NCBI RefSeq assembly: GCF_000724625.1
Contig: NZ_CP007139.1
Coordinates: 1,302,001 to 1,366,000, forward strand
DNA length: 64,000 nt
Source: Fimbriimonas ginsengisoli Gsoil 348
Lineage (GTDB): Bacteria; Armatimonadota; Fimbriimonadia; Fimbriimonadales; Fimbriimonadaceae
Direction: 5' to 3'
Under the pieces are notes generated by a model. The model searched no databases and was not told the DNA's origin. It worked only from the letters and a program-made list of their open reading frames with translations. Below are positions 32,836 to 39,413 of the stretch, one piece after another. The translations under genes were made by a program, and so were the position numbers. The first letter of the stretch is position 1. Every line of letters begins with the position of its first letter.

Positions 32836-33696
32836 CTAACCCAATGTTTGAACTTCGTTCACCGCCGCTTCAAGGGCTTGACTATGGAAGCTTGCGTGTT
32901 CGACCGTGTCGCGAAGAGGTTGGAGATCCAATTCCCAGTTGGTATCGGAGGGAGCCGTGCTGAGGCGCTGGAGACTGTCTCGCATGCCGCGCATCGACTG
33001 CGCCAGCATCTCCAGCTGCGCGTCGACGCGCTCGACGACGAGCGATAGGTCTCGAACTGCCTGTAACCGCCCCTGGCATAATTCGAAGCTTCGCTCCAAG
33101 GCTTCACGGGTCATCGAGTCATTGGTTTGATCGAGTCGCTTCCTAATCTCTTCCATCTCGGAGGAGACTTGGGCGGGCGTCGAAAGTCCTACCGATCCGC
33201 GGTCCCGCACCGATCGTAGTCGCGTCTCTTCATCGATCAGCCGGTTGAGCTGCTTCCACACGTCGTCGCCGGTTTCCTCGGGTAGGTTCAGGCGGTAAAG
33301 CACGAGGGCGGCCTCGCTGTAGGCGCGCTGTACCGGAGAGAGATCCAATACGGGAAGCAGTGCGGCCAGCTCGTCTGCGGAAAGCCGCTTGCGGCTCGTT
33401 TGGTAGCCCAGGTAGGCGTGGAGAAAGCCAAGAACGAGGACACTGAGTACGGCAAAGTTTACAGAGGGATTTCCGAGCATCGGTTTCACGGCTATGGAGC
33501 CGACAAACGCGACACTATAGAAGACGAACCAGGCAAAGCAGCCCTTGCCGTACTGCTTCATCCAAAGCGACTGGTACGCCTTTATCGCTTTCGCATGCTC
33601 AGGCACCAGGCTCGACGTCCCCGGCCAGGTGTATTGCTGGGCAAATTGGTCGGCCAGCCGAAGAATTTCCGGGTGAATCCGTCCATCCAACCTCAT
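32836..33696 (-). CDS. Membrane protein with C-terminal coiled coil
   Basis: A 286-residue protein of unknown family. Two transmembrane helices form a hairpin (about residues 54-72 and 79-97, AWFVFYSVAFVGSIAV and FAVLSVLVLGFLHAYLGY). A long cytoplasmic part follows, rich in Leu, Glu, Gln and Arg with heptad-like spacing from about 150 to 280, suggesting a coiled coil. It is divergent from the Gfo/Idh/MocA gene. Confidence 0.75.
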   Translation of the reverse strand: MRLDGRIHPEILRLADQFAQQYTWPGTSSLVPEHAKAIKAYQSLWMKQYGKGCFAWFVFYSVAFVGSIAVKPMLGNPSVNFAVLSVLVLGFLHAYLGYQTSRKRLSADELAALLPVLDLSPVQRAYSEAALVLYRLNLPEETGDDVWKQLNRLIDEETRLRSVRDRGSVGLSTPAQVSSEMEEIRKRLDQTNDSMTREALERSFELCQGRLQAVRDLSLVVERVDAQLEMLAQSMRGMRDSLQRLSTAPSDTNWELDLQPLRDTVEHASFHSQALEAAVNEVQTLG

Positions 33697-34994: not shown

Positions 34995-35792
34995 GTGAAG
35001 CTGTTCTCTTGGAACGTCAACGGTATTCGGGCGGTGTTGCGGAAGGACATGTTCGGCCCTTTCGTCGCCACGGAAAAACCGGATGTCCTTTGCCTTCAAG
35101 AGACCAAAGCGCAGCCCCACGAGGCGGTCGTCGATCTGCCCGATTACGAGGAGTATTGGAACTCGGCCGATAAGAAGGGGTATTCCGGAACCGGCATTCT
35201 CACCAAGACCAAGCCTCTAACGGTTCAGAGAGGCTTGCCGGCCGAAATTCTCGCGAAGTACGACATGAGTACGGACGGTTACGGCGACCCGAATGCCGAG
35301 GGTCGCGTGTTGATGGCGGAATTCGAGAAGTTCTTTCTCGTCACGGTTTACACGCCAAACGCCAAAGACGACCTGAGCCGCATCCCCTTACGCCGGGACC
35401 ACTGGGACCCCGCATTTCTCGAATACTGCCAGCTCCTGGAAAAGTCAAAGCCGGTTGTCTTCTGTGGCGACTTGAACGTCGCCCACACCGAGCTTGACCT
35501 TGCCAATCCCAAGCCGAATATGGGGAAGAAAGGTTTTACACTGGAAGAGAGGGCCGGCTTTCAGGCCTTTCTCGACGCCGGCTACATCGACACCTTCCGC
35601 ATCTTTACGCAAGGCAACGGTCACTACACATGGTGGAGCCAGATGGGCGGCGCGCGAGCGCGCAACGTAGGGTGGCGGATCGACTATTTCCTCGTCTCAT
35701 CCGGACTGCGAGACAAAGTCACTGCCGCCGAAATTCACGCGAGCGTGATGGGGTCCGATCACTGCCCGATCAGCCTGACCTTGGACCTTTGA
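34995..35792 (+). CDS. xth: Exodeoxyribonuclease III
   Basis: A 265-residue AP endonuclease/3'-5' exonuclease of base-excision repair. Asn7 in SWNVNGIR, Glu36 in CLQETKA, the NAKDDLSRIPLR stretch, GDLNVAH and the terminal GSDHCPISL are the family's active-site motifs, all intact. The length is typical. The start is GTG 34995, six bases after a TATGAT that could be a -10 giving a leaderless message. Confidence 0.95.
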   Translation: MKLFSWNVNGIRAVLRKDMFGPFVATEKPDVLCLQETKAQPHEAVVDLPDYEEYWNSADKKGYSGTGILTKTKPLTVQRGLPAEILAKYDMSTDGYGDPNAEGRVLMAEFEKFFLVTVYTPNAKDDLSRIPLRRDHWDPAFLEYCQLLEKSKPVVFCGDLNVAHTELDLANPKPNMGKKGFTLEERAGFQAFLDAGYIDTFRIFTQGNGHYTWWSQMGGARARNVGWRIDYFLVSSGLRDKVTAAEIHASVMGSDHCPISLTLDL

Positions 35793-36149: not shown

Positions 36150-37472
36150 ATGCGTAAGCCACGGCACGAGGTGCGCGACGGGATCCACGGGTTTGTCACA
36201 TTTGACAATGTAGAGCGGGACCTCATCGATAGCCGACCGTACCAGCGACTCCGTTCAATCCATCAACTTGCCTTAACCTATCAACTCTATCCGGGAGCAA
36301 CCCATCGGCGGTTCGAACACTGTCTGGGCGTGATGGAAATCGCCTCACGGATCTTCGACCGGCTGTTCGACGGGCAAGTACCCGACAACGTAAGGGGGCG
36401 TATCGCTGACGAACTTCAGAATGATAAGGGGTACTGGAGGCGGGTCTTGCGGGCAGCGGCGCTACTCCATGATCTAGGCCACCTCCCGTTCTCGCACGCC
36501 GCTGAAGCCGAACTGCTTCCCGCCGGTTGGGACCATGAACGCTTGACCGCCGAGATCATTCGTAAGTCCGAGATCAAGGATATCCTCGGGAACGCCACAT
36601 CGCCCATCAAGCCAGAGGATGTCATTGACATCGCGTGGTCGCCAAAGGACCGGGCAAAGGCGGAACCGGACTTTAAACTTAGTCCTTGGAAGGCTCTGCT
36701 AAATGAGATCATCACGGGGAACACATTTGGAGCAGATCGCATCGACTATCTGCTGCGTGACTCGTGGCACGCAGGAGTGGCCTACGGACGATTCGATCCC
36801 GATCGATTGGTGGCGGGTTTGCGGCCGATCGTAGCTCCAGATACCGACGAGGTCGCGATTGGATTGGACGACGGGGCGATCCACGCGGCGGAGGCCTTGC
36901 TATTGGCTCGTTATTTTATGTATACTCAAGTCTACATGCATGAGGTGCGTCGAATCTACGACCTACACCTTCAGCGCTTCCTACAGGCCTGGTTGGCCGA
37001 AGGTAAATTCGACGTGGCTTGGGAAAGGGCGATCTTGAATACGGACGATGAAGTGCTTGCGGCGATGCGAGCCGCGATGGCTGACCTCAATCACCCTCAC
37101 CATGTCCTAGCCCAACGGGCGATGGGACGGCAACACTTCCGAACCGTTTACTCACTGGCGGCTCCCCACAAGAAGAAAAAGCCAACAATATTAGAGGACA
37201 TTTACGCATTTTTATGCGGACAGTTTGGGGATAGCCGGATTGAACGGTCGCAGTATGGCCCCAAGTCCGAGGCAAACACTTTTTGGGTGGTTCTTGAAAG
37301 TGGAGACCTTCAGCGGGCCGAGGAGTTCTCAAGTGTCATCGCCCACGTCCCTTCTATCGAGATCGGGTTCGTCTTCGCCGAGTCAGCCATTAAGGACCAA
37401 GCCGAAGAAAGCATCAAAGCCAAGTTTAAAAACGTCCTTTCAACGCCAAAGCCCAGAACTAGGAAAAAATGA
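36150..37472 (+). CDS. HD-superfamily phosphohydrolase (YwfO/dGTPase-like)
   Basis: A 440-residue metal-dependent HD phosphohydrolase. RLRSIHQLALTYQLYPGATHRRFEHCLG (with H52 and H57) opens the domain, His107-Asp108 in LLHDLGHLPFSHA form the HD pair, and the distal Asp is in FGADRIDYLLRD. This pattern is that of the YwfO/SAMHD1-like dNTP triphosphohydrolases. Its stop overlaps the next ATG by four bases. In Bacillus subtilis ywfO and ywgA are, as I recall, neighbours, so the pairing seems conserved. It may regulate dNTP levels; a defence role is possible but unproven. Confidence 0.85.
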   Translation: MRKPRHEVRDGIHGFVTFDNVERDLIDSRPYQRLRSIHQLALTYQLYPGATHRRFEHCLGVMEIASRIFDRLFDGQVPDNVRGRIADELQNDKGYWRRVLRAAALLHDLGHLPFSHAAEAELLPAGWDHERLTAEIIRKSEIKDILGNATSPIKPEDVIDIAWSPKDRAKAEPDFKLSPWKALLNEIITGNTFGADRIDYLLRDSWHAGVAYGRFDPDRLVAGLRPIVAPDTDEVAIGLDDGAIHAAEALLLARYFMYTQVYMHEVRRIYDLHLQRFLQAWLAEGKFDVAWERAILNTDDEVLAAMRAAMADLNHPHHVLAQRAMGRQHFRTVYSLAAPHKKKKPTILEDIYAFLCGQFGDSRIERSQYGPKSEANTFWVVLESGDLQRAEEFSSVIAHVPSIEIGFVFAESAIKDQAEESIKAKFKNVLSTPKPRTRKK

Positions 37473-37984
37473 TCGACTTCACCCGACATTGGTACATCCT
37501 CGAAGCCGTCAAGGATCTCCGCGCTGCCGGAAGTTGGGCGGGCAAAACCCACGTTATCAAAACTCTTGCTTTGGTCAATCTGTTGGAAGAAACTCCTTTT
37601 GACTTCGTTCTGTACAAGCATGGTCCGTACTCTTTCGATATCGATGCAGAACTTGAGCAACTCAGAAGCTATGACGGCTTGGTCGAGGAGCGAGTCGGTG
37701 GGTATGGCCCTCGGTTGAAGCCAGGTGCCGGAGCGAGGTTCGTTGTGACGCAGGCATCGCCGCCCAAAAACGCGGCGGAATTGATCAAGAAAGCGGCCAA
37801 TTTTGCCAAGGATCGCGATGTAAGCGGCTTGGAGGCAGTTGTGACATCTGCATGGATCGTGGTTCGCGAAGACATCTGCGATGCGACGATCGTCGCTCAG
37901 CGACTTGTTGAGCTTAAGCCTCACATTTCGGTACTGGTCGCCCGAAAAGCCGCCGAAGAAGCGATTGAATTCATTGCCTGTTAA
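37469..37984 (+). CDS. YwgA-like protein
   Basis: A 171-residue protein similar to the YwgA group (function unknown). The N-terminal half, with GSWAGKTHVIKTLALVNLL and FDFVLYKHGPYSFDIDAEL, matches the characteristic helical module of that group, which resembles SocA/Panacea-like domains in having an LYKHGPYS-type motif. It is coupled to the HD gene by an ATGA overlap, so the two products probably work together. No catalytic motif is visible. Confidence 0.7.
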   Translation: MIDFTRHWYILEAVKDLRAAGSWAGKTHVIKTLALVNLLEETPFDFVLYKHGPYSFDIDAELEQLRSYDGLVEERVGGYGPRLKPGAGARFVVTQASPPKNAAELIKKAANFAKDRDVSGLEAVVTSAWIVVREDICDATIVAQRLVELKPHISVLVARKAAEEAIEFIAC

Positions 37985-38149
37985 GGCAGGTGACAAATAT
38001 GCATGAGGTCACGCATTTTTGACGGCACAGCCTAGAACAGAGGCGGTTGCCCTGTTCGTGCTGGCCGTTAAAGTCTTCGTAAGCGCAGTTACGGCGCGTT
38101 TGAATCTTACTTAGGGCTTCCGCTCAATTTAAGTTCAATTCTCCCAGAG

Positions 38150-38220
38150 CTGCCGGACTAGGATTCGAACCTAGACGTGCGGCACCAAAAACCGCTGTCC
38201 TGCCATTAGACGATCCGGCA
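38150..38220 (-). tRNA. tRNA-Gln (UUG)
   Basis: A 71-base cloverleaf read on the minus strand: acceptor TGCCGGA/TCCGGCA with G as discriminator, D arm GTC...GAC, anticodon stem GCGGT/GCCGC with loop TTTTGGT giving anticodon TTG, and T arm CTAGG-TTCGAAT-CCTAG. CCA is not encoded. It lies between the HD/YwgA pair and the M24 peptidase. Confidence 0.95.
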
Positions 38221-38321
38221 ACGTCGGGGTGAGTATACCGGGCGGGTGGGGATGATTTTTGATGGGTGATGAGTGATGGCTGATGCCCTCCGGGAATAGG
38301 GAGGGTTTATACTTCGTGACC

Positions 38322-39413
38322 ATGGCGAATCGAGTGGAGCGGCTGGCGGAGAGGATCGGGGAAACCGGGGCGGATGCGTTTATTGCGTGGGATCCGGTCA
38401 CGATGGGGTACTTGCTGGGGTTCCATGAGAACGCTCACGAGCGGTTTCTCGCCTTGGCGATCAGCGCAAAGGGGGAGGTTCGGCTGATCTGCCCAGCGCT
38501 TACCGAGAGCCAGGCGCGGCGGATCGGCATCCAGGACATCCGGCCCTGGAAGGACGGGGAGGACCCGATGGGGCATTTCTTCGAGCTCGCCCGCGACTGG
38601 AATCTCAAGAGCGCGATCATCGCGGTCGACGCCGTCTTACCCGCGCGGCAGCTCTTGAAGATGCAAGATTGGCTCCCCGCCGCCCTCTTCAAAGACGGCG
38701 AGTCCATCGTCGCTAGTCTTATGAGCCGGAAAGAGCCGGAGGAGATCGATCGGCTCCGGAAAGCCGGGGCGGTGGCGGACGAGACGTTCCTCGAGGTGTT
38801 CCCCAAGATTCGCGCGGGACAGACCGAACGGCAGATCGAGAAGATGCTGAACGACGGGATGACCGCTCGCGGCGGTACGCCGGCCTTCGCCATCGTGGCG
38901 GCCGGGGCGAACGCAGCGGAGCCGCACCATCTTTCGGACGACACCGTACTCAAGACGGGCGACACGCTGATCCTCGACTTCGGGTGCGAGCGCCAAGGGT
39001 ACATCAGCGACATTACGCGGACGGTCAGCGTTGGCCCTGCCAGCGATAGCGCCAAGGAGATGTACGACTTGGTCTACCGGGCGCATATGGCGGCGCGGAA
39101 GGCGATCCGGCCGGGAGTTCCGGCGAACTCGATCGATAAGGCGGCGCGCGACGTCATCGTGGCCGGCGGCGCGGGGGAGGCGTTCTTCCACCGGACCGGG
39201 CACGGGATCGGGATGCAAGGGCACGAGCATCCGTACATCAACGACTCGAACTCGGAGCCACTGGAGCCGGGCAACTGCTTCAGCATCGAACCCGGCGTCT
39301 ACTTTGCGGGGGAATTGGGGATCCGCATCGAGAACATCGTCGCGGTGACCGAGGACGGTCACGAGAGCATGAACGCGGAGCCGAGCCCGACATTGTTGGA
39401 AACCGGCGGTTAG
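38322..39413 (+). CDS. M24-family Xaa-Pro aminopeptidase/dipeptidase
   Basis: A 363-residue metallopeptidase of the creatinase/prolidase fold. After an N-terminal domain (about 1-130), the five metal ligands are present: Asp in LILDFGC, Asp in SDITRT, His in GHGIG, Glu in SIEPGVY and Glu in GIRIENI. It cleaves N-terminal residues next to proline. ATG 38322 is preferred to the codon 13 residues upstream because the family starts there. TATACT at 38308-38313, eight bases before, could be a -10 element. Confidence 0.92.
   Translation: MANRVERLAERIGETGADAFIAWDPVTMGYLLGFHENAHERFLALAISAKGEVRLICPALTESQARRIGIQDIRPWKDGEDPMGHFFELARDWNLKSAIIAVDAVLPARQLLKMQDWLPAALFKDGESIVASLMSRKEPEEIDRLRKAGAVADETFLEVFPKIRAGQTERQIEKMLNDGMTARGGTPAFAIVAAGANAAEPHHLSDDTVLKTGDTLILDFGCERQGYISDITRTVSVGPASDSAKEMYDLVYRAHMAARKAIRPGVPANSIDKAARDVIVAGGAGEAFFHRTGHGIGMQGHEHPYINDSNSEPLEPGNCFSIEPGVYFAGELGIRIENIVAVTEDGHESMNAEPSPTLLETGG

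Follow-up and report, generated by a model that had tools for sequence, protein, structure and literature searches.

A SAMHD1-type HD phosphohydrolase coupled to a YwgA-type protein with a DarG C-terminal-domain fold in Fimbriimonas ginsengisoli: a candidate dNTPase-inhibitor pair

Beside a tRNA-Gln gene of Fimbriimonas ginsengisoli Gsoil 348, two overlapping genes encode an HD-domain phosphohydrolase and a small protein of the YwgA type, which raises the question of what this enzyme acts upon and what its partner does to it. The window (the whole stretch of DNA that was analysed, 64,000 nt) lies on a chromosome of 5.23 Mb contained in a single contig. A preliminary description of this DNA had reported an intact HD protein and a YwgA-like protein joined by a four-base overlap, and both ORFs were found at these positions. 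The genes of the locus are:

34995-35792, exodeoxyribonuclease III gene, upstream of the pair
36150-37472, plus strand, HD phosphohydrolase of 440 aa, SAMHD1/EF1143/Aq_1910 (COG1078, YwfO) type
37469-37984, plus strand, YwgA-type partner of 171 aa with a DarG C-terminal-domain fold
37469-37472, plus strand, 4-nt ATGA overlap of the HD and partner genes
38149-38220, minus strand, tRNA-Gln (TTG), convergent to the pair
38283-39413, M24 peptidase gene, beyond tRNA-Gln

The HD gene starts with ATG and carries GGAGAGG shortly upstream, while the partner ATG sits within the HD stop and is preceded by AGGA; both genes have good ribosome-binding sequences. The ATGA overlap, which recurs identically in many relatives, implies translational coupling of the two genes. 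Since the gaps flanking the pair (357 nt on the 5' side and 164 nt on the 3' side) contain no ORF of at least 60 aa wholly inside them, the unit consists of two genes. Its G+C content is 0.52-0.57, compared with about 0.60 in the surroundings. Two other features of this region were recorded. The exodeoxyribonuclease III gene has a second copy in the same genome (G000 C1:1594326-1595120) with 94% protein identity and 89.5% DNA identity over 813 nt, and in the other congeners searched close homologues were limited to two (77% and 73%), with distant ones or none in the rest. A 286-aa ORF on the minus strand (32836-33696), lying amid annotated-looking genes, has no Pfam match.

Judged by its sequence, the HD protein is a member of the SAMHD1/EF1143/Aq_1910 family and not of the Dgt family. 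It matches the Pfam families HD (PF01966, E 5e-12) and HD_assoc_2 (PF19276, E 5e-13), and the closest solved structures are the Aquifex protein 2hek (E 1e-49), E. faecalis EF1143 (2o6i, 3irh and 4lrl) and SAMHD1. Its AlphaFold model (pLDDT 94.6) matches 2hek with E 6e-24, dNTP-bound EF1143 (3irh and 4lrl) at about 1e-21 and SAMHD1 at about 1e-17; by the SAMHD1/EF1143/COG1078 fold it is nearer EF1143 and SAMHD1 than Dgt. The label of a Dgt-type dGTPase was rejected (TIGR01353, 29.8 bits against a cut-off of 152), as were the anti-phage dGTPase of Dgt type (NF041026, 19 bits against 400) and a CRISPR Cas3-HD reading, for which the PADLOC matches were weak (6e-4). Of the nucleotide hydrolase originally proposed, the intact active site thus stands and the dGTPase name has to be replaced by SAMHD1/EF1143 type. 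The two catalytic motifs are:

36468-36497, plus strand, HD motif HDLGHLPFSH, residues 107-116 (H107, D108, H111, H116), invariant in 43 of 43 aligned homologues
36534-36539, plus strand, HE dyad H129 E130, identified by alignment with SAMHD1, H in 42 and E in 43 of 43 homologues

In the same 43-homologue alignment the metal ligands H57, H107, D108 and D196 are invariant or nearly so. Alignment with human SAMHD1 gives the equivalents Q149=Q39, R164=R54, H167=H57, H206=H107, D207=D108, H210=H111, H215=H116, H233=H129, E234=E130, D311=D196, K312=R197, Y315=Y200, D319=D204, R366=R254 and Y374=Y262, each of these fifteen being kept in 38-43 of the 43 homologues, with exceptions that are mostly exchanges of R and K. 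The metal ligands, the HE dyad and the triphosphate-binding residues of the SAMHD1 family are therefore all present, and Y262, which occupies the sugar-gate position, is kept. Because of this family membership and intact active site, the best prediction for the HD protein is a triphosphohydrolase acting on dNTPs, and it is a strong one. An RNA 5' triphosphate, (p)ppGpp or a cyclic or modified nucleotide would be a rather improbable substrate, with the partner then regulating the enzyme or conferring specificity as a subunit. In its favour are the promiscuity of the HD superfamily, the purely hypothetical annotation of 2hek, the best structural relative, and the suggestion that YwfO might be a pyrophosphohydrolase acting on modified trinucleotides or mRNA 5' ends (PMC4993169); the retained SAMHD1 triphosphate residues and Y262, together with the dNTPs bound in the closest studied relatives (3irh, 4lrl), argue against it. 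On plasmids and phages the HD protein has no close relatives; the homologues found there share less than 40% identity with it and are mainly partial. Among prophages, the Klebsiella records H50-H53 encode an HD homologue of about 25% identity, which may be a Clover-type or another prophage-borne dNTPase.

The partner sequence alone matched no Pfam family, and among PADLOC models only weak matches (PDC-M19A and DarG) were obtained. A profile built from 17 family members matched one solved protein, DarG of the M. tuberculosis DarTG complex (7yk3_B, E 1e-11), and the members themselves matched DarG models in PADLOC (17/17) and NCBIfam (16/17). The part of DarG that is covered is the C-terminal domain alone (profile positions 167-323 of 329). 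With the AlphaFold model of the partner (pLDDT 96.9, pTM 0.91), Foldseek returned below 1e-3 only the two DarG chains 7yk3_B and 7yk3_D, and VIA-align gave a Z of 16.6 to DarG (7yk3) across 160 of the 171 residues. Profile and predicted structure show that the partner has, over its full length, the fold of the DarG C-terminal domain (DarG-CTD). YwgA had been described as having no known role, and this antitoxin fold now gives a clue. Two motifs stand out:

37541-37561, plus strand, GxTxxxK motif, G25-K31, where helix 2 of the partner begins, from alignments; the consensus is GxTxxQK and I replaces Q30
37622-37633, plus strand, GPYS motif, G52 P53 Y54 S55, after a beta strand; G52 and P53 are invariant in 46 sequences

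Throughout the family K31, G52 and P53 are invariant, and besides I at Q30 the window partner deviates by having A at Y34. The GxTxxQK helix and GPYS strand recall the helix-2/GPV architecture, with its GPV motif, of the Panacea antitoxin domain (PMC8832971). The Panacea Pfam family PF13274 was matched weakly by two of the 17 relatives (best E 0.0075) and not by the window partner; Panacea membership was rejected, the gathering score not being reached. According to the title of the study that reported 7yk3 (Deep et al. 2023, cited in PMC12170906), the C-terminal domain of DarG inhibits its toxin DarT through mimicry of single-stranded DNA.

On the basis of the modelled fold the partner is predicted to act directly on the HD protein, as its inhibitor or regulator. 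The N-terminal 100 residues also resemble winged helix-turn-helix domains (Z 7-9.6), as would be expected if the partner were a transcription factor, controlling its own operon or sensing DNA, and not an inhibitor of the enzyme. Such a factor is improbable, since over the full length only the antitoxin domain of DarG matches, with a score well beyond those of the others, which are partial winged-helix matches with Z up to 9.6 over 65-89 residues (the next best 9.6 over 71 aa). Moreover, the partner gene follows that of an enzyme with translational coupling, the most conserved motifs of the protein, GxTxxQK and GPYS, point to the DarG/Panacea class and not to a recognition helix, and its pI in the window is 5.8. 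Proteins of about 345-460 aa with a YwgA-type domain and no HD neighbour (L221-L227) also occur in Armatimonadota, their length suggesting DarG-type antitoxins.

A lasting association of the two families, which the preliminary description had stated for Bacillus subtilis and had proposed to check outside this lineage, was found across many phyla. When GTDB genomes were scanned with the HD protein, a YwgA-type ORF lay directly 3' in 46 of the 80 loci kept, and about 60% of the HD-homologue loci with room downstream carry a partner there (63/103, a few loci being counted twice). Among HD relatives scoring above 500 bits the fraction rises to 24/25, the exception (L069) having a partner-like ORF on the other strand. 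The bacterial hosts include Armatimonadota, Desulfobacterota, Bacillota, Planctomycetota, Verrucomicrobia, Acidobacteria, Chloroflexota, Nitrospirae, Alphaproteobacteria, Actinomycetota, Hydrogenedentota, Latescibacterota and Omnitrophota, and the archaeal ones ANME-2, Methanothrix, Methanophagales, Geoglobus and Thermoplasmata. Starting from YwgA-like loci of Armatimonadota, an HD gene was paired in 19 of 30, or in 19 of 21 after exclusion of long DarG-like and weak hits. The divergence of HD proteins is correlated with that of their partners (Mantel r 0.87, the largest of 2000 permutations being 0.37, for these two families compared with each other), also within the window subfamily (r 0.83, the permutations reaching at most 0.73), as expected for a co-inherited unit. 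Because about 60% of loci are paired and divergence in one family tracks that in the other, the pairing is not due to chance.

The copy in the window is solitary: none of its 37 proteins has a PADLOC match at 1e-15. The pair was found in none of eight sampled congeners, one of which (G169) has a distant HD homologue, and in 201 Armatimonadota genomes a single-sequence search found a relative of the window partner beside an HD relative in four. The neighbourhood of tRNA-Gln and the M24 peptidase is conserved in six congeners, none of which has the pair at that site, and the far side of the tRNA varies among these six, with a nearby contig end in two. The window pair is accessory, as had been supposed, and tRNA-Gln marks the boundary of the accessory segment. 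With regard to the tRNA as an accessory site, the adjacency itself is correct, but the tRNA gene is convergent on the minus strand, so that the pair adjoins its 3' side, and no direct repeat of the tRNA 3' end that would mark integration was found within the window.

A role in defence, which had been inferred for the pair, is supported by the context of relatives and not by that of the window. In the family to which F. ginsengisoli itself belongs, one locus (L161, 92-10471) is a class I DISARM operon with the order DrmMI-HD-YwgA-DrmA-DrmB-DrmC, and DISARM genes lie downstream of the pair in two further loci (L238, L052). In five others (L046, L048, L049, L057 and L062) the pair is directly 3' of HmaA, and HmaB, in most cases joined by HmaC, lies farther downstream; in L057, at a contig edge, the C-terminal half of HmaA overlaps the HD start. 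A Type III restriction-modification Mod-Res pair is directly 5' of HD-YwgA in L059, a Type I methyltransferase is near the pair in L061 and BrxC in L094, and DrmD and an LmuB-like gene are near it in an Armatimonadetes MAG (L045). At E 1e-20, 169 PADLOC families were matched among 77 proteins neighbouring pairs, a count inflated by redundant models, and one among 74 neighbours of unpaired HD homologues, a contrast that is large despite this redundancy. A stricter probe with 14 defence proteins was positive in 13 of 58 paired loci (some of which supplied the probes, L046 and L048 being near-duplicates), in 0 of 35 unpaired loci and in 0 of 6 Bacilli loci. Recurrent placement in defence loci was thus seen in relatives, but not at the window locus or in the six Bacilli loci probed, and a defence role of the solitary window copy is a tentative proposal that falls somewhat short of even odds. 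A five-gene form of Hma, HmaA-HD-YwgA-HmaB-HmaC, was seen to recur: Desulfacinum, a Planctomycetota MAG and an ANME-2 archaeon have it, and other genomes hold partial forms.

In Bacilli the situation is different. YwgA occurs in 63 of 200 genomes, and each of the 30 loci inspected has an HD gene immediately upstream, with conserved neighbours and a conserved chromosomal position, which supports the original identification of the two genes as of the ywfO and ywgA type. Compared with the window pair, the same two families occur in the same order, but the Bacilli pair looks like a core locus and is diverged, its HD proteins mostly scoring 240-270 bits to profile A4 against 525 for the window protein. 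This core-like character argues against a purely defensive role of the pair, and for Bacilli ordinary control of the dNTP pool appears more likely than a defence backup arm. To our knowledge, the Bacilli pair has not been reported as a toxin-antitoxin system. Extended to the whole family, such housekeeping would mean that the enzyme controls the pool of dNTPs (or of other NTPs or an alarmone), with the partner as an allosteric or stabilising subunit and the defence genes as neighbours hitchhiking in the same islands. Consistent with it are the synteny of the pair and the frequency of YwgA in Bacilli, the lack of defence genes in the window and the 45 of 58 paired relatives in which the limited 14-protein probe recognised no defence neighbour. 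The sporadic occurrence outside Bacilli, as in Armatimonadota and the sampled congeners, does not fit, however, and the tight spacing inside DISARM and Hma operons is poorly explained by hitchhiking; we consider this general housekeeping role unlikely, although not to be neglected.

The reading preferred here, to which a probability of about 50% is assigned, is a regulated dNTPase that a second protein restrains by direct inhibition, which would make the pair a protein-based counterpart of Clover. The HD protein would convert dNTPs to deoxynucleosides and triphosphate, like EF1143 and SAMHD1, and its uncontrolled activity would drain dNTPs and halt growth. In the simplest model the coupled YwgA partner, made from one transcript with the enzyme, would bind it directly and keep it reversibly inactive, a restraint modelled on that of the DarG C-terminal domain on DarT and of Panacea antitoxins on their toxins. 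Direct inhibition is suggested by the partner fold, the recurrent pairing and the co-divergence, and on these grounds it is slightly favoured. A cue linked to infection or replication (replicating phage, ssDNA or a shift in the dNTP ratio are examples) would lift the inhibition, after which dNTP depletion would stop replication; inside DISARM, Hma or restriction-modification operons the pair would form a backup effector arm. The inhibition may possibly be achieved by mimicry of a nucleic acid or nucleotide. As titles of PDB entries state that SAMHD1 binds single-stranded nucleic acid, and the DarG domain reportedly mimics ssDNA, a shared mechanism based on a nucleic-acid groove is conceivable, if speculative. 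Several points weigh against a dNTPase with its inhibitor: the winged-helix part of the partner fold makes a DNA-binding regulator possible, the pair of Bacilli is syntenic and resembles a core locus, the window copy stands alone and has a partner that is off-consensus at Q30 and Y34, and the enzyme gene precedes the partner gene. In many toxin-antitoxin operons the antitoxin comes first, but in DarTG and Clover this is not so.

Among the systems described so far, Clover provides a precedent: its dNTPase CloA is toxic without the partner CloB and the draining of dNTPs protects against phage (PMC12265719). Clover (CloA dGTPase and CloB nucleotidyltransferase) and the HD-YwgA pair are both two-gene units, found in defence islands (for HD-YwgA, in relatives of the window copy), that combine an HD protein bearing dNTPase-type catalytic residues with a partner, which in Clover restrains the toxic dNTPase. 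CloB, however, is a Pol-beta nucleotidyltransferase making p3diT, whereas the partner here has the DarG-CTD fold, and the spread of HD-YwgA includes archaea and a core-like form in Bacilli; membership in Clover was rejected for the window pair, no nucleotidyltransferase domain being matched in its partner. With DarTG the pair shares a fold, that of the domain with which DarG binds DarT and blocks it, but it has no macrodomain or DarT, its neighbour being an HD hydrolase; the 171-aa partner aligns to the C-terminal domain only, and DarTG membership was likewise rejected. PanAT (Panacea, PF13274/DUF4065, SocA) resembles the pair in that a small protein of the antitoxin class, having a central helix and a conserved GP motif, accompanies an enzyme. 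Panacea antitoxins are known to swap toxin partners. No HD-domain toxin is named in the searched text of the Panacea paper (PMC8832971). EF1143 and SAMHD1 have family, fold and catalytic residues in common with the window HD protein, which lacks a SAM domain, has a coupled partner and is closest by fold to Aquifex 2hek. As for Hma and DISARM, the pair is internal to these operons in several relatives, while the window copy is without their genes. The component lists of Hma and DISARM known to us contain no HD-YwgA pair. In the PADLOC paper Hma was named with three genes only, and a paper on BREX diversity in which Hma is discussed uses none of the terms YwgA, Panacea, dNTP and HD domain.

The proposal of a two-component unit of dNTP control or defence survives this analysis, with a molecular hypothesis for YwgA added. 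The main texts of open-access papers on YwgA, YwfO, COG1078/COG3432 and HD proteins or dNTPases with DISARM or DarG were searched and nowhere describe the pair as a module; an earlier description elsewhere is possible. In its broadest form, which we regard as doubtful, the proposal is that a SAMHD1-type dNTPase silenced by a dedicated DarG-CTD/YwgA inhibitor constitutes a widespread class of undescribed defence modules, standing alone or plugged into DISARM, Hma or restriction operons, in which dNTP depletion would set in once the first defence has failed. The YwgA family, which has no known function, gains a concrete candidate role through a structurally understood antitoxin domain, and the hypothesis offers a way in which bacteria and archaea may carry SAMHD1-like enzymes without poisoning themselves. 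If it is true, the Clover principle of a restrained dNTPase would extend to a protein inhibitor, DISARM and Hma operons would gain an unrecognised two-gene component, and the function of ywfO-ywgA in Bacillus would become directly testable.
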